In this document: positions 12,630 to 17,760 of the stretch, piece after piece | How the letters are laid out: every line of letters begins with the position of its first letter | How positions within the stretch are numbered: the first letter of the stretch is position 1 | Assembly (NCBI RefSeq): GCF_016629525.1 | Contig: NZ_AP024269.1 | Location: 2,356,001 to 2,420,000, forward strand | Reading direction: 5' to 3' | Source: Kaistia sp. 32K | GTDB taxonomy: Bacteria; Pseudomonadota; Alphaproteobacteria; Rhizobiales; Kaistiaceae | DNA length: 64,000 nt | Position numbers and translations under genes: made by a program | The notes under the pieces: generated by a model | What the model was told of the DNA's origin: nothing | The model's database searches: none | What the model saw: only the letters and a program-made list of their open reading frames with translations

Positions 12630-13484
12630 TCAGCCGGCAACCTTCTCTGCCAGCGCCTGCAGCCGCTCGGCCGGCGCGCGGCCGATCAAGAGGCGAGCCT
12701 GGCCGCCGGAGGCCCAATGGACGATCGTGAATCCGTCCAGCTCCTCCGTCGTCGGCGGTATCTCGGCCTTGTCGGGATTGGCGATCACGCAATAGGCGAT
12801 CGGCCCATGCTCGGGGTCGAGAAACGCCATCTGCACCAGCGGCTTGCCCCGGAAATCGAACAGCTGCGCCCCGCGGAACGACAGGCCCGGAAAGGCGTCC
12901 GGCGCGGAGGCGAGATCCACGCCCACCTTCTTGGAGGCGAGGCTCAGCTCGGCCGCCGCGCGCTCCGGCGTCGGCGCCAGCGCCAGCGTCTCGGGGGTCG
13001 TCAGCGACCAGTATTCGGCGACCGCCTGTCGCCAGTCCTCGACCGGGGCGGGCTCCCTCACCTGCTGCGCTTGCTCGATCGGCTGCGCCTGCTGCGCCGG
13101 CGGCGACGCGGCATGGCCGCGAATGAACTCGTTGGCGATGCCGCCGAGCAGGAACAGCGCGATCGCCGCCGCAACCATCTGCCGCGGGCTGAGCGCCGCC
13201 TGCGGCCACATCCGCCGCAGCGGCACGACGTTGCCGGCCTCGTGCTGGGCGACGGCCTGCGCCAGGATGTTGTCGAGCCGCGCCTTCGGCGCCTGCGACT
13301 TCAGGGCATCCAGCGCCGGGGAAATGCCCGCGCCGCCGCGTTCCAGGAAAGCCAGGCGGCCGGCGAGCTCCGCCTCTGCGTCGAGGCGGGCCTCCAGGGC
13401 GGCGCGATCGCGATTGTCCAGCTCGCCGTCGAGATAGGCGACCAGGATGGAATCGTCGGGATGGGTGGAGATCTCAGCCATCAT
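12630..13484 (-). CDS. Anti-sigma factor, single-span membrane protein
   Basis: 284 residues. The N-terminal cytoplasmic part (1-95) resembles anti-sigma domains (DDSILVAYLDGELDNRDRAALEARL). One membrane span lies near residues 103-117 (MVAAAIALFLLGG), then a Pro/Gln/Ala linker and a periplasmic domain of about 150 residues. The HxxxCxxC zinc motif of ZAS anti-sigmas is absent. Its start overlaps the end of the ECF sigma gene by 11 bases, so it is translated together with the sigma factor it presumably holds at the membrane. The signal sensed is unknown. Confidence 0.85.
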   Translation of the reverse strand: MMAEISTHPDDSILVAYLDGELDNRDRAALEARLDAEAELAGRLAFLERGGAGISPALDALKSQAPKARLDNILAQAVAQHEAGNVVPLRRMWPQAALSPRQMVAAAIALFLLGGIANEFIRGHAASPPAQQAQPIEQAQQVREPAPVEDWRQAVAEYWSLTTPETLALAPTPERAAAELSLASKKVGVDLASAPDAFPGLSFRGAQLFDFRGKPLVQMAFLDPEHGPIAYCVIANPDKAEIPPTTEELDGFTIVHWASGGQARLLIGRAPAERLQALAEKVAG

Positions 13485-14013
13485 CCCCTCGCCTGTCGTC
13501 CGGGGTCGCCGGCCTGGTGTCGCCCGCGAGCGGGCTCAGTTTTTCACGGATGGCGGCAAGCCGGCTCATGATGGTTCCAATCGGCACGCCGAGATGTTCA
13601 GCCGCCTCGCGGTAGGAGTATCCTTCCGCGTAGACGAGCAGGACGGTTTCCCGCTGTGCCTCGGCCAGCCGTCCTATCTCGCTTAACACCTGAGCGGCGA
13701 GAATATTCGATTCCATCGCCGGCCCGCCCTCAAAAACGAGGGCGATCTCCGCATCGACGACGCCGCTGCCCCGCCGGACCCGTTGCGACCTGAGCTCGTT
13801 GATCCAGATCGAGCGCTCGATCGAGAAGAGCCAGCGGTCGAGCCGCGTCTCCGGCGCGAACTGGTGGGCCCGCTCCAGCGCGCGAACGCAGGTGGCCTGC
13901 ACGAGGTCCTCCGCCGTATCGCGATTGCGCGACAAGACCAAGCCATAGCGCCACAGCGCCTCCAGATGAAGCGCCAGGCCTTGCTTCACAGCATCGTTAC
14001 CGGTTCTGGACAT
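13474..14013 (-). CDS. ECF sigma factor (RpoE-like)
   Basis: 179-residue sigma-70 family protein with only regions 2 and 4. Region 2 covers about residues 12-80 (LEALWRYGLVLSRNRDTAEDLVQATCVRALERA; RLDRWLFSIERSIWINELRS) and region 4 about 110-165 (RETVLLVYAEGYSYREAAEHLGVPIGTIMSRL, helix-turn-helix). It directs RNA polymerase to its own promoter class. It overlaps the anti-sigma gene and is divergent from three exported-protein genes that share upstream sequence blocks. The first of those blocks lies partly inside the start of this gene. The ECF subgroup was not determined. Confidence 0.93.
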   Translation of the reverse strand: MSRTGNDAVKQGLALHLEALWRYGLVLSRNRDTAEDLVQATCVRALERAHQFAPETRLDRWLFSIERSIWINELRSQRVRRGSGVVDAEIALVFEGGPAMESNILAAQVLSEIGRLAEAQRETVLLVYAEGYSYREAAEHLGVPIGTIMSRLAAIREKLSPLAGDTRPATPDDRRGDDG

Positions 14014-14027
14014 GGGGAAACGAATAG
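13994..14027 (+). promoter_or_regulatory. Putative ECF-sigma promoter of first TPR gene
   Basis: TCGTTACC at 13994-14001 and CGAATAGGGCTCC at 14021-14033 resemble blocks before the next two genes. The spacing is a base or two shorter than in the other copies and longer than the usual ECF 16-17 spacer, so the exact -35/-10 assignment is uncertain. Confidence 0.4.
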
Positions 14028-14097
14028 GGCTCCCGCCCCTGCTGTTCTTGCCGCGACTCTCGTCTCAGAGGCGAGAGGAAACCAGTCGGAGGCTCCG

Positions 14098-14775
14098 ATG
14101 ACAACCATGTTCGAAAAGACGACGCGATCCGTCCTCACGATCGCATTCATTGGCCTGCTCGCCTCGACCGGCGCAGCCCTCGCTTCGAGCGGTGGTGGCG
14201 GCGGGGGCGGCGGCGGAAGCAGCGGCGGTGGAGGTAGCAGTAGCAGCAGCAGCGGCGGCATGGGCGGTGGCGGCGGCGGCATGGGCGGCGGCAGCAGCAG
14301 TAGCAGCAGCAGCGGCGGCAACAGCCACTTCATGCCGAGCAACCAGGTCTGCAAGCGCGGCCTCGTCTTCAGCCAGCGCGTCCAGCACTGCGTCAAGGCA
14401 AGGTCGAGCGGCCTGACCGATCAGGAGCTGTTCCAGCAGGGACGGCAGCTGGCGCTCGCCGGCTATCATGACAACGCCCTCGACGTTCTCGACGCCGTCC
14501 AGAACAAGCAGGACGCGATGGTGCTGACCTATATCGGCTACAGCCACCGCAAGAAGGGCGATACCGACCTCGGCATCGGTTACTACAAGCAGGCGCTGGC
14601 CATCGATCCGAACAACGTCAACACCCATGAATATCTCGGTGAAGGCTATGTCAGCATCGGGCGCATCCAGCTCGCCAAGGATGAGCTGGTCATCGTCCAG
14701 AAGCTCTGCGGCAACACGACCTGCGAGCAATTCGAAGATCTCGAGGCCGCCGTCGCCGGCAGGCCGGCCGAATAA
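14098..14775 (+). CDS. Exported Gly/Ser-rich TPR protein, paralogue 1
   Basis: 225 residues. An N-terminal signal peptide (about 8-29, SVLTIAFIGLLASTGAALA) is followed by a Gly/Ser-only stretch to about residue 75 with almost no other residues. Then comes a short cysteine module CKRGLVFSQRVQHC and two TPR-like repeats (about 110-190, DAMVLTYIGYSHRKKGD; YYKQALAIDPNNVNTHEYLGEGY), ending with KLCGNTTCEQFEDLEAAV. The paired cysteines suit disulfides in the periplasm. GGAGG lies 5 bases before the start. Divergent from the ECF sigma gene and followed by a close paralogue. Function unknown; probably an effector of the sigma factor. Confidence 0.8.
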   Translation: MTTMFEKTTRSVLTIAFIGLLASTGAALASSGGGGGGGGGSSGGGGSSSSSSGGMGGGGGGMGGGSSSSSSSGGNSHFMPSNQVCKRGLVFSQRVQHCVKARSSGLTDQELFQQGRQLALAGYHDNALDVLDAVQNKQDAMVLTYIGYSHRKKGDTDLGIGYYKQALAIDPNNVNTHEYLGEGYVSIGRIQLAKDELVIVQKLCGNTTCEQFEDLEAAVAGRPAE

Positions 14776-14864
14776 GCCGGCAGGGGCCCGTCCGCTCTCC
14801 GGCGGACCCACCAGGGCGCCGGTGGCGTCAATCCAGACGCCGCCGGCAGGCCATCATCCCCTCT

Positions 14865-14907
14865 TCACCACTTCGTGATCGACGTCCAGCCTGCCGCCGT
14901 CGAATAG
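14865..14907 (+). promoter_or_regulatory. Putative ECF-sigma promoter of second TPR gene
   Basis: TCACCACTTCGTGA at 14865-14878 and GTCGAATAG at 14899-14907. The first block is identical before the third gene, and CGAATAGGGCTCC is identical before the first gene. It ends about 50 bases before the start codon. Confidence 0.45.
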
Positions 14908-14959
14908 GGCTCCACCTATGAACGTTTGTACGTCGCGACAACCATACAGGGAAACGACG

Positions 14960-15541
14960 ATGTTCCAATCTCGCTTCGACAAGACCGCGCGCGCCACGCT
15001 GGCCGTTGCTTTCGTCGGGCTGCTCGGCCTCGGGGCCGCCATGCCCGCGCTCGCCGCCAGCGGTGGCGGTGGCGGCGGTGGCGGCAGCGGCTCTTCCGGC
15101 AGCGCACCGCCGAAATGCCGGCAGGGCCTCGTCTGGGACCAGAAGGTGGGGCGCTGCGTACGGGCCCAGTCCAGCAATGTCCCTGACAAGGAGTTGCTGC
15201 AGCAGGGCCGCGCCCTCGCGCTGGCCGGCTACTATGACGACGCGCTGATCGTGCTCGACGCGGTCAAGAACAAGCAGGACGCGATGGTGCTGACCTATAT
15301 CGGCTACAGCCACCGCAAGAAGGGCAATACCGACGTCGGCATCGACTATTACAAGCAGGCGCTGGCGATCGAGCCCGACAACCTCAACACGCATGAATAT
15401 CTCGGCGAGGGCTATGCCAGCGCCGGACGGATGGAGCTCGCCAAGCAAGAGCTGGTCATCGTCGAGAAGCTCTGCGGCAACACGACCTGCGAGCAATATG
15501 AAGATCTCGCGGCCGCGGTCGCCGGCAAGCCGACCGAATAA
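14960..15541 (+). CDS. Exported Gly-rich TPR protein, paralogue 2
   Basis: 193 residues, a tandem paralogue of the gene before it. A signal peptide (to about residue 33, AVAFVGLLGLGAAMPALA) leads to a much shorter Gly/Ser stretch. The cysteine module CRQGLVWDQKVGRC, two TPR-like repeats and the KLCGNTTCEQYEDL end follow. The start is set before MFQSRFDK with AGGGAAA 5-8 bases upstream; the frame is open to 14918. The TPR part shares a run of 59 identical bases with paralogue 1, far above the rest of the gene. Function unknown. Confidence 0.8.
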   Translation: MFQSRFDKTARATLAVAFVGLLGLGAAMPALAASGGGGGGGGSGSSGSAPPKCRQGLVWDQKVGRCVRAQSSNVPDKELLQQGRALALAGYYDDALIVLDAVKNKQDAMVLTYIGYSHRKKGNTDVGIDYYKQALAIEPDNLNTHEYLGEGYASAGRMELAKQELVIVEKLCGNTTCEQYEDLAAAVAGKPTE

Positions 15542-15590
15542 TCACGGAAACGAACCGGCGGCATCTATATTGAGGCCGCCGGCTCGGCCG

Positions 15591-15634
15591 TCACCACTTC
15601 GTGACCCGCGTTACATCTTCTGGATGTCGAATAG
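15591..15634 (+). promoter_or_regulatory. Putative ECF-sigma promoter of third exported gene
   Basis: TCACCACTTCGTGA at 15591-15604 and GTCGAATAG at 15626-15634, as before the second gene but with one extra base of spacing. Located 54-97 bases before the start codon. Confidence 0.45.
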
Positions 15635-15687
15635 TGCGCGCGCAAGGAATAGCTTCGTATCGGCATCACGCCGACGGAGAGATACCG

Positions 15688-15975
15688 ATGACCTCGGTAG
15701 CAACCACCGTTCCGCTCGCGATCGCCTGCATCGGGCTGATCAGCCTGGCCGCCGCGGATCCGGCCTTCGGGGCCTGCGGCAGCCATAGAAGGGTGAGCCA
15801 TGCGCGCATGCCGCCATGCAGCGATCAACAGGTCTGGGACACCGAGTACCAACGCTGCCTGTCCGTCAGCGCGAAGGGGCCTCCGGATCAGGAAGCCTGG
15901 CCGCGCGGGTCGAGCTGGGGGAACAACTACGGCAGCAGCTTCGGCGCCGGACAGATCATGCCGAACGCGCAGTAG
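15688..15975 (+). CDS. Small exported protein related to the TPR paralogues' cysteine module
   Basis: 95 residues with a signal peptide ending near AAADPAFG and then four cysteines. The segment CSDQQVWDTEYQRCLSV matches the cysteine module CRQGLVWDQKVGRCV of the preceding gene, and SAKGPPDQE matches the following SSNVPDKE, but the TPR part is missing. The C-terminus is Gly/Ser/Asn-rich. GGAGA is 7 bases before the start. It is either a truncated paralogue or a free-standing version of the module. It shares the upstream blocks of the other two genes, so probably the same regulon. Confidence 0.7.
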   Translation: MTSVATTVPLAIACIGLISLAAADPAFGACGSHRRVSHARMPPCSDQQVWDTEYQRCLSVSAKGPPDQEAWPRGSSWGNNYGSSFGAGQIMPNAQ

Positions 15976-16060
15976 ATCCGCGCCGCGCCGGCGACCGGTC
16001 CGACCGGCGGAAGCCAGGCTCCGGTCCTGAAAGAAATGCCTTCGCATGGAGACAATTGGC

Positions 16061-17185
16061 ATGAACCTGATCCGGTTTCCCGGCGCCACCATGACGGCGC
16101 CTGCCGGCAATCCGCACGTCACCGCGACGCTGCGCTCCCTGGTGACGGTGGTGCCGCCGCACCATATCCCGCAATCCGTGGCGAAGGAGCGGGCGCGCGA
16201 GGTCTTTGGCTCGCGCATGCCCTTCTTCGACCAGCTCGAGCAGGTGTTCGACAACGCCGCGATCGACGCGCGCTACAGCTGCCTGCCGGTCGAGTGGTTT
16301 CTCGGGCCGGCGGATTTCGAGGAGAAGACGCGGCTCTACCAGGAACACGCGACCGCCCTCGCCTTCACGGCCGCCAACCGGGCGCTGGACCGGGCCGAGC
16401 TGAAGGCCGAAGACATCGACGTCATCGTCTTCGTGTCCTCGACCGGCATCTCGACGCCCAGCATCGACGCGCGGCTGATGAACCTCATTCCGTTCCGCAG
16501 CGACGTGATGCGCCTGCCGGTGTTCGGGCTCGGCTGCGCCGGCGGCGTGCTCGGTATGACGCGGACGGCGCAGATGGCGCGCTCGCAGCCGGGTCTCAAC
16601 TGCCTGCTCATCGTCGTCGAGCTCTCCAGCCTCGCCTTCCGCTATGACCGGCTGACCAAGAGCAACCTCGTCGCCAGCGCATTGTTCGGCGACGGCGCCG
16701 CCGCCGCCATCGTCACGAGCGGCGCCGAGGATTCGACGTCCCCGACACTCGGCATCGGCGGCGAGCATTGCTGGCCCGACACGCTCGACGTGATGGGCTG
16801 GAACATCGACGCGCAGGGCTTCGACGTCATCTTCCAGCAGAGCATTCCGCAGATCATCGCCGACGATTATCCGGCCGCCCTCGACGGCTTCCTCGACCGG
16901 CATGGACTTGAGCGTGCCGACATCGACCGCCCGTGCTGCCATCCGGGCGGCGCGAAGGTGACGGACGAACTGGAGAAGGTGTTCGGATATCCGAAGTTCG
17001 GCCTCGATGCCGAGCGTCGCGTGCTCGCCGCCTATGGCAACATGTCGGCGCCCACGGTCCTGTTCGTGCTCGACGATCTGCTGCGGAGCGGCGCGAGCGG
17101 CACGCTGCTGATGTCGTCGCTCGGGCCGGGCTTCACCGCCGGGTTCCAGATGGTGACCGTCGCCGAACCACAGCCGGCGCCATGA
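16061..17185 (+). CDS. Type III polyketide synthase (chalcone synthase-like)
   Basis: 374-residue homodimeric ketosynthase fold that extends acyl-CoA starters with malonyl-CoA to give alkylpyrones or alkylresorcinols. The catalytic triad is intact: C159 in FGLGCAGG, H294 in CCHPGGAKV and N327 in AAYGNMSAPT. The start at 16061 has GGAGA 7 bases upstream; an in-frame ATG at 16046 is also possible. The stop overlaps the next gene by ATGA, a type III PKS plus methyltransferase arrangement like bpsA-bpsB of Bacillus and srsA-srsB of Streptomyces. Starter and product cannot be told from sequence. Confidence 0.92.
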   Translation: MNLIRFPGATMTAPAGNPHVTATLRSLVTVVPPHHIPQSVAKERAREVFGSRMPFFDQLEQVFDNAAIDARYSCLPVEWFLGPADFEEKTRLYQEHATALAFTAANRALDRAELKAEDIDVIVFVSSTGISTPSIDARLMNLIPFRSDVMRLPVFGLGCAGGVLGMTRTAQMARSQPGLNCLLIVVELSSLAFRYDRLTKSNLVASALFGDGAAAAIVTSGAEDSTSPTLGIGGEHCWPDTLDVMGWNIDAQGFDVIFQQSIPQIIADDYPAALDGFLDRHGLERADIDRPCCHPGGAKVTDELEKVFGYPKFGLDAERRVLAAYGNMSAPTVLFVLDDLLRSGASGTLLMSSLGPGFTAGFQMVTVAEPQPAP

Positions 17186-17760
17186 GCCTCGGCTGGGCCT
17201 ATTGGCTGCTCCTCGCCGTCGCCCTGCAGCGCGGCGTCGAGCTGATCCGCGCCCGCCGCAACACCCGCGCGCTGCTGGCGCGCGGCGGCCGCGAGGTCGG
17301 CCGGGAGCACTATCCCGTCATCGTCGCGCTGCACGCGGCCTGGCTCGCGACGCTCGCCCTGCTGACCGCGCCCGACCCGCCGGTCCAATGGATCCTGATC
17401 GCCGCCTTCGCGCTGCTTCAGCTCCTGCGCCTCTGGGTGCTGGCGAGCCTCGGCCCCTACTGGACCACCCGCATCATCACGATCGACGACGCGCCGCTCC
17501 GGGCGACCGGGCCCTACCGCTTCCTGCGCCACCCCAACTACGTCGTCGTCGCGCTGGAGATCCCGCTGCTCGCCCTGATCCTCGACCTGCCGGTCGCGGC
17601 GCTGGTCTTCGGCGTCCTGAACCTCGCCGTCCTCGCCTTCCGCATCCGGATCGAGAACCAGGCGCTACTGGCGCGCAGGCCGTCGGCGGATCACGCCGAA
17701 AGCAGGTCTTCCAAGGCCAGCGCGACGATCTCGGTCGCGGCGCGCAAGTCGGACAGCTGA
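17182..17760 (+). CDS. Isoprenylcysteine carboxyl methyltransferase (ICMT)-family membrane protein
   Basis: 192-residue membrane methyltransferase with about four to five spans. The SAM-binding ICMT signature is GPYRFLRHPNYVVVALEIPLL near residues 112-132, followed by FRIRIENQALLARR. By analogy with BpsB/YpbQ it probably O-methylates the polyketide made by the neighbouring synthase at the membrane. It is coupled to that gene by a 4-base overlap. The last 70 bases overlap the end of the convergent M20 gene, so the hydrophilic tail (SADHAESRSSKASATIS) is encoded on DNA used by both. Confidence 0.88.
   Translation: MSLGWAYWLLLAVALQRGVELIRARRNTRALLARGGREVGREHYPVIVALHAAWLATLALLTAPDPPVQWILIAAFALLQLLRLWVLASLGPYWTTRIITIDDAPLRATGPYRFLRHPNYVVVALEIPLLALILDLPVAALVFGVLNLAVLAFRIRIENQALLARRPSADHAESRSSKASATISVAARKSDS

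Follow-up and report, generated by a model that had tools for sequence, protein, structure and literature searches.

Gene organization of the locus

The window analyzed here is a stretch of 64,000 nucleotides from the single-contig, 5.35 Mb genome of Kaistia sp. 32K. It contains a gene for an extracytoplasmic function (ECF) sigma factor, an anti-sigma gene and a divergent set of genes for exported proteins, and the promoters of this set are the subject of the analysis. The sigma gene (13474..14013, reverse strand) encodes a protein with Pfam sigma regions 2 and 4 and overlaps the anti-sigma gene (12630..13484, reverse strand) by 11 bases. Running divergently on the forward strand are gene 1 (14098..14775), gene 2 (14960..15541) and gene 3 (15688..15975), followed by a probably co-transcribed gene matching type III polyketide synthases (PKS; 16046..17185) and a gene matching ICMT-type methyltransferases (17182..17760), the start of which was picked by us within a longer listed reading frame. 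A previous sequence-only reading had described a sigma gene overlapping an anti-sigma gene, with three divergent genes for exported proteins of unknown function. The layout is borne out by the reading frames, with signal peptides of genes 1–3 assessed by eye only. The set of three was incomplete, however, as the PKS and methyltransferase genes come next in 13 out of 13 other loci fetched from the same genus. In G049 the two genes lie beside the TPR gene and are divergent from it.

The label of unknown function does not wholly apply to genes 1 and 2, which are mutual paralogues and match tetratricopeptide repeat (TPR) families. Gene 3 encodes a short protein that matched no family in the family scan and whose likeness is limited to the N-terminal part of genes 1 and 2. 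Four cysteines are invariant in the alignment of the TPR family (C53, C66, C172 and C177, gene 2 numbering), which suggests two disulfides in the exported proteins.

Relatives of gene 2 were found in 37 of the 61 genomes searched, its own genome counted and all 13 other genomes of the genus included, and a sigma orthologue of at least 60% identity adjoins the TPR gene in 22 out of 34 stretches fetched around these relatives. A scan with the sigma alignment gave 393 confirmed loci, of which the best 80 were used; as top matches these are picked by sigma similarity and are rich in Rhizobium and Pseudomonas. They come from Kaistia, Bauldia, Microvirga, Labrys, Rhizobium, Pseudomonas, Acidisoma and others. 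Together with the window and seven further loci they make up a set of 88 loci, in which 143 genes were scored, namely 96 genes of the TPR family, counting relatives of gene 3, and 47 PKS genes, two of them fragments. In four scan loci (L139, L143, L147 and L176) there was no match to TPR proteins and none to PKS. In Pseudomonas loci where no PKS match was found within about 12.5 kb, the TPR gene precedes the sigma gene. A shorter sigma gene (151 aa, with an internal deletion) was observed in a metagenome bin (L045, 7176-7631, G007).

Predicted core promoter and likely sigma factor identity

Alignment of the sequence 5' of the sigma start revealed CGAATAG followed, 15 bases on, by YGTTY. In the window these correspond to a putative -35 element of gene 1 at 14021..14027 (CGAATAG) with its -10 at 14043..14047 (TGTTC), and to a -35 of gene 2 at 14901..14907 (CGAATAG) with its -10 at 14923..14927 (CGTTT), all on the forward strand; CGAATAGGGCTCC stands before both genes. 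CGAATAG is also found before gene 3 (15628..15634, forward strand), with no YGTTY 15 bases on. The sequence-only reading had noted related blocks upstream of all three genes, with 19–21 bases between GTkAyC and CGAA, and had called the -35 and -10 roles uncertain. The gaps were as claimed. The puzzle of the long spacer disappears with CGAATAG as the predicted -35 and the -10 that had been missed downstream of it, before genes 1 and 2.

ECF26 promoters of Sinorhizobium meliloti, mapped by their 5' ends, have GGAATA as -35 and GT as -10 according to the authors, an example being SMc01022 with GCGAATAA-N15-CGTCT (PMC6180224). CGAATAR-N15-YGTTY fits this geometry and differs by one base, at the first -35 position. 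The window sigma factor is 42% identical over 172 positions to S. meliloti RpoE6, which was located via its listed promoters on pSymA. The sigma factor appears to be ECF26-like, a group call made from promoter geometry and pairwise identity. RpoE1, RpoE3, RpoE4 and RpoE6 of S. meliloti (PMC6180224, PMC3511301) share with it the GGAATA-like -35, the GT -10, the spacing and a downstream single-span anti-sigma factor. Their targets are sulfite oxidase, lipoprotein-15 or protease genes, whereas those in Kaistia would be TPR and PKS genes behind a CGAATA -35 and an upstream CenR-type operator.

The strict motif [CT]GAATA[AG]-N15-[CT]GTT[CT] was found within 420 bases upstream of 70 out of 96 TPR-family genes and 23 out of 47 PKS genes (0.0 and 0.0 in dinucleotide shuffles), and a looser form upstream of 85 and 32 of them, respectively (2.95 and 1.45 in shuffles). 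The core promoter accompanies the sigma/TPR pair in Kaistia, Bauldia, Rhizobium, Microvirga and Pseudomonas. Most Pseudomonas loci carry it, for example as TGAATAATTGTTCACGCTGCGGTGTTC, and in 2 out of 14 (L154 and L155) it was not found in the stretch scanned. The earlier proposal that the sigma factor drives its neighbours is in this respect most likely correct; it holds less well for gene 3, where YGTTY is missing. Comparison of five loci showed an upstream palindrome, described below, before gene 3 in all five and CGAATAG in four.

A wider regulon was sought with CGAATAR-N15-YGTTY in 14 genomes of the genus. The 37 matches fell in 13 genomes, 16 of them at the locus and the other 21 away from it; the reversed control gave 8. 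Out of 16 off-locus matches inspected one looks real. In this case (L211, 1501-1577, G004:C1:2272214) a CGAATAG-N15-TGTTC core lies about 76 bases before a gene for a small exported protein resembling, by eye, the secreted-repeat (lipoprotein-15) family that is tied to ECF26 factors elsewhere. Matches common to several genomes (L210, L213, L227 and L228 inspected) read better reversed, as a putative promoter of another ECF type at a MAVKELL.. gene. Most of the remaining matches overlap long reading frames. These results support a mainly local target set.

A putative palindromic operator upstream of the core promoter

CenR is an envelope response regulator, essential where tested, and CenKR is reported to be essential in several alphaproteobacteria. 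The first conserved block noted in the sequence-only reading is the palindrome TCAC-N6-GTGA, which appears to be an operator separate from the core promoter and most likely belongs to CenR. Its copies before gene 2 (14865..14878) and gene 3 (15591..15604), both TCACCACTTCGTGA on the forward strand and both recovered by the CenR matrix described below, are the only two in the genome, with no reversed-control matches. Gene 1 is preceded by the variant TCACAGCATCGTTA (13986..13999, forward strand). The presence of related blocks before all three genes is confirmed. They exceed chance expectation: palindrome and core searched as one pattern gave 22 matches in 18 out of 32 related genomes, two matches in G009 being one site, all at this locus and with no match in the reversed control. 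Among 397 genomes of the order the same pattern gave 22 matches in 18 genomes, 19 at the locus, against five control matches; the three off-locus matches (G388, G282 and G393:C24) were taken as chance, although the gene next downstream of two of these seems to encode an exported protein.

The distance between operator and core is confined to a few values. TCAC-N6-GTKA was found at most 82 bases upstream of 80 out of the 115 core promoters having that much sequence (0.1 expected by shuffling). Measured from TCAC to the -35, the spacings were 24 (2 cases), 25 (5), 26 (19) and 28 (1), then 34 (2), 35 (29) and 36 (15), and finally 57 (4), 58 (2) and 60 (1), with no other values. Out of seven helical periods tried 10.5 fitted best (R 0.88), 11 and 10 being near-equal (0.86) and the loci being related. 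Taken with the matrix sites below, the distances of about 25, 35, 48 and 58 bases are roughly helical steps. In Rhizobium the divergent promoters of PKS and TPR genes commonly have a single palindrome between them, at a distance of about 26 bases on one side and 35/36 or 57/58 on the other. The operator may be absent from a duplicate TPR gene; two Bauldia-like loci (L048 and L049) carry second TPR genes with a CGAATA..GTGTTG core and without the palindrome.

The operator of gene 1 spans codons 5–10 of the sigma gene, its TCAC being the GTG-A of codons 9 and 10. Because GTGA is part of the box, codons were counted over the full set of 22 divergent sigma orthologues, with or without a box. Val9 is GTG in 21 out of 22, compared with 36% of Val codons elsewhere in these genes, and Arg10 is AGA or AGG in 11 out of 12 Arg cases, compared with 9.6% of Arg codons elsewhere. 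The exception (L046, GTC CGC at codons 9-10) is without the box. The sigma genes are related and the cases are therefore not independent events.

The assignment to CenR draws on published sites. S. meliloti CenR acts at srlA through AGTCAC-N6-GTGACT, where single changes in either arm cut activity, and chvI carries a variant ending in GTTACT (PMC9561847), the same variation as seen at Kaistia gene 1. CenR sites from chromatin immunoprecipitation sequencing in Rhodobacter sphaeroides include TCACCTCCTCGTGAG (PMC9275681). A matrix was built solely from 31 published R. sphaeroides sites, with no palindrome imposed. On it the three window operators score 11.55, 11.91 and 11.33, values reached by 7, 4 and 8 of 127,972 window positions. 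At a cut-off of 9, picked after the scores were seen, the best site within 85 bases upstream qualified for 82 out of 103 alphaproteobacterial core promoters, none of 12 from Pseudomonas and 2.1% of letter shuffles; at a cut-off of 7 it qualified for 89 out of all 115. Offsets of the 82 sites were 24–28 (28), 34–36 (45), 48 (2) and 57–60 (7). The CenR orthologue of Kaistia (227 aa) has D50, D55, L95 and E159 as in the published proteins, and orthologues at 68–100% identity were found in 18 out of 22 genomes tested, while the best CenR-like match in three Pseudomonas genomes was at most 38% identical and none was found in an incomplete bin (G024).

Sites of the Kaistia type resemble those of CenK-CenR in S. 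meliloti (srlA) and R. sphaeroides in that TCAC-N6-GTGA precedes the -35, the targets belong to the envelope or are exported, and an orthologous CenR is present (PMC9561847, PMC9275681). They differ in lying above an ECF-type promoter, about 25, 35, 48 or 58 bases from the -35, and in that some are shared by two divergent promoters. ChvI was rejected as the regulator behind this site, since the motifs reported for it, TTGC-N3-GCAA and N-GCC-N8-GCC, differ from the palindrome (PMC9731502). No description of this locus or of a CenR site at an ECF promoter was found in the open-licence PMC literature.

The palindrome was also searched alone, as TCACNNNWTCGTGAYC, in the genus. This gave 29 matches in 14 out of 14 genomes, 15 at the locus and 14 elsewhere, with no control matches. 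Inspection of all 14 off-locus matches gave no wider regulon, several being beside rsmE-like or amidase genes and others overlapping reading frames. In three genomes (L207 in G006, L194 in G013 and L203 in G008) a near-perfect palindrome lies directly 3' of an amidase-like gene and before a lytic-transglycosylase-like gene, where it may either form a hairpin or serve a cell-wall gene as one more CenR site. In two others (L186 in G009 and L206 in G004, near 1501) a similar palindrome abuts TGTAACGAAAC, which resembles a -35 used by a different ECF group; the genes downstream encode an exported repeat protein and a cytochrome-b-like protein.

Probable joint control by sigma factor and CenR

The signal acting on the sigma factor would enter through the anti-sigma factor, for which alignment and a structure model indicate a four-helix cytoplasmic domain, one membrane span and a periplasmic domain, matching the ECF26 arrangement. 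As the sequence-only reading had it, this is a non-zinc anti-sigma factor, for the N-terminal domain has no conserved cysteine and the sole invariant one, C232, is periplasmic. The predicted periplasmic part may resemble the C-terminal domain of RseB, a match of fold only at 11–13% identity on a predicted model. RseA/RseB and MucA/MucB are envelope-stress modules that combine a membrane anti-sigma factor with such a fold; in Kaistia the RseB-like domain would be fused to the anti-sigma factor. Envelope stress is a plausible setting. In Rhizobium and Pseudomonas orthologues (e.g. L055, L099, L145, L150, L155 and L157) the span starts with RRxFL or RRxxL, resembling a twin-arginine export signal that the Kaistia protein is without.

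At the output end, the PKS has both chalcone/stilbene synthase domains (PF00195 and PF02797) above cut-off. Type III PKS and ICMT pairs such as BpsA/BpsB and SrsA/SrsB make methylated alkyl-pyrones or phenolic lipids, and by analogy the product in Kaistia is probably one of these. The nearest solved PKS is Mycobacterium Pks11 (E 5.6e-50), which bears the label of an alpha-pyrone synthesis enzyme. A composite promoter of its own precedes the PKS of Rhizobium and close kin in 29 out of 29 full-length cases. In Kaistia it would be transcribed by read-through, given a 70-base gap without a listed terminator. Azotobacter vinelandii AlgU, which controls the arsABC phenolic lipid genes, is similarly an ECF sigma factor over type III PKS genes, differing in ECF group, promoter and lipid genes and in having no CenR (PMC10651043). 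Two Microvirga loci have a more distant PKS (32–35%) near the sigma gene, with a loose core and palindrome (L124, 7425-8855; L129, 7375-11182). In L129 two methyltransferase-like genes and one for an FAD-dependent enzyme, all judged by eye, come after it, an accessory set unlike the PKS/ICMT pair.

We consider it probable that the ECF26-like sigma factor and CenR jointly control the exported TPR proteins and the PKS/methyltransferase operon. The membrane anti-sigma factor with its predicted RseB-like domain would hold the sigma factor until an envelope signal frees it to transcribe the divergent TPR genes and, by read-through, the PKS and methyltransferase genes. The target promoters would be in two parts, the core CGAATAR-N15-YGTTY and the upstream TCAC-N6-GTGA operator on a fixed helix face, where CenR most likely assists the ECF holoenzyme, so that full output would need both signals. 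To our knowledge, most accounts of ECF sigma factors involve no activator. If transcription starts at the last base of the mapped sequences, which is our reading, the operators would be centred near -52, -62 and -83, further upstream than the -42 of srlA by about one, two and four helical turns. These steps suggest that CenR helps the holoenzyme from one face. Computation gave the locus and its conservation, the gene families, the core motif, the operator with its phasing and the presence of a CenR orthologue; binding, activation as opposed to repression, read-through, the product and the inducing signal are what we infer from these. The complete circuit, in which the two act as two keys from one helical face of PKS-lipid and TPR promoters, one site serves two divergent promoters, the Kaistia site sits in the sigma coding start and the anti-sigma factor has its own RseB-like sensor, is given about even chances.

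Several observations weigh against joint control. No YGTTY stands at the right distance before gene 3 in the five loci compared, so that it is at most a candidate target of the sigma factor, and the Kaistia PKS is without its own core in 14 out of 14 loci, save for one loose N14 match (L109). CenR is present and the box absent at G017/L046/L113 and at several Microvirga-like and other Hyphomicrobiales TPR promoters, and just 6 out of 16 TPR promoters classed as other reach a matrix score of 7. tolQ is a CenR target elsewhere, and upstream of Kaistia tolQ only 1 out of 14 loci reaches 9 (L264, 328 bases off), start picking being crude and L257 taken on the wrong strand. No good site was found upstream of cenR (best 5.5) or of what we take to be chvI (best 5.0). 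The identity of the regulator is therefore firmer in Rhizobium, which has the published srlA repeat, than in Kaistia. Finally, the published description of the R. sphaeroides CenR site is a direct repeat, TGA-N8-TGA, and not a palindrome (PMC9275681). This mismatch and the poor sites at tolQ, cenR and chvI would suit another dimeric regulator mainly devoted to this locus, as would the rarity of strong sites elsewhere (four in G000, two of them here, one near rsmE and one in dxs). Such a regulator is nevertheless unlikely, for the matrix of published sites recovers the operator unprompted by any palindrome, the site tested in S. meliloti has this very palindrome (PMC9561847) and, among the listed families sought, no regulator gene turned up repeatedly next to the locus in the tabulated stretches.

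Should CenR be the owner, it could repress these promoters or act on the sigma gene from the operator in its coding sequence, as it represses some R. sphaeroides genes (PMC9275681). This is improbable, since the operators of genes 2 and 3 and of the Rhizobium PKS/TPR region lie outside the sigma coding sequence, activated R. sphaeroides promoters carry the site upstream of the -35 (PMC9275681) and the upstream helical spacing classes suit activation. It is rather doubtful that this sigma factor is one of several ECF26 paralogues using the core promoter; S. meliloti ECF26 factors do cross-activate one another's promoters (PMC6180224), but the core accompanies this sigma locus across families. 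Somewhat more credible, though at less than even chances, is that the TPR proteins act chiefly as partners of the anti-sigma factor in feedback, with the PKS lipid as the real output. No partner is more constant than the TPR gene, which is present also in the Pseudomonas loci where no PKS was matched, and there are four invariant cysteines in the TPR family and one invariant periplasmic cysteine in the anti-sigma factor; up to three copies in Kaistia look like output. That possibility is compatible with control by the sigma factor and CenR together.

Under joint control, a single set of genes for exported proteins and a polyketide lipid would probably integrate two envelope signals. Natural variation offers a ready test in the form of helical-step spacings, shared or missing operators and lineages without CenR. 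CenKR would gain a concrete secondary-metabolite target, and if both the envelope signal of the anti-sigma factor and phosphorylation of CenR are required, this may be a reason why such type III PKS genes might be silent in the laboratory.

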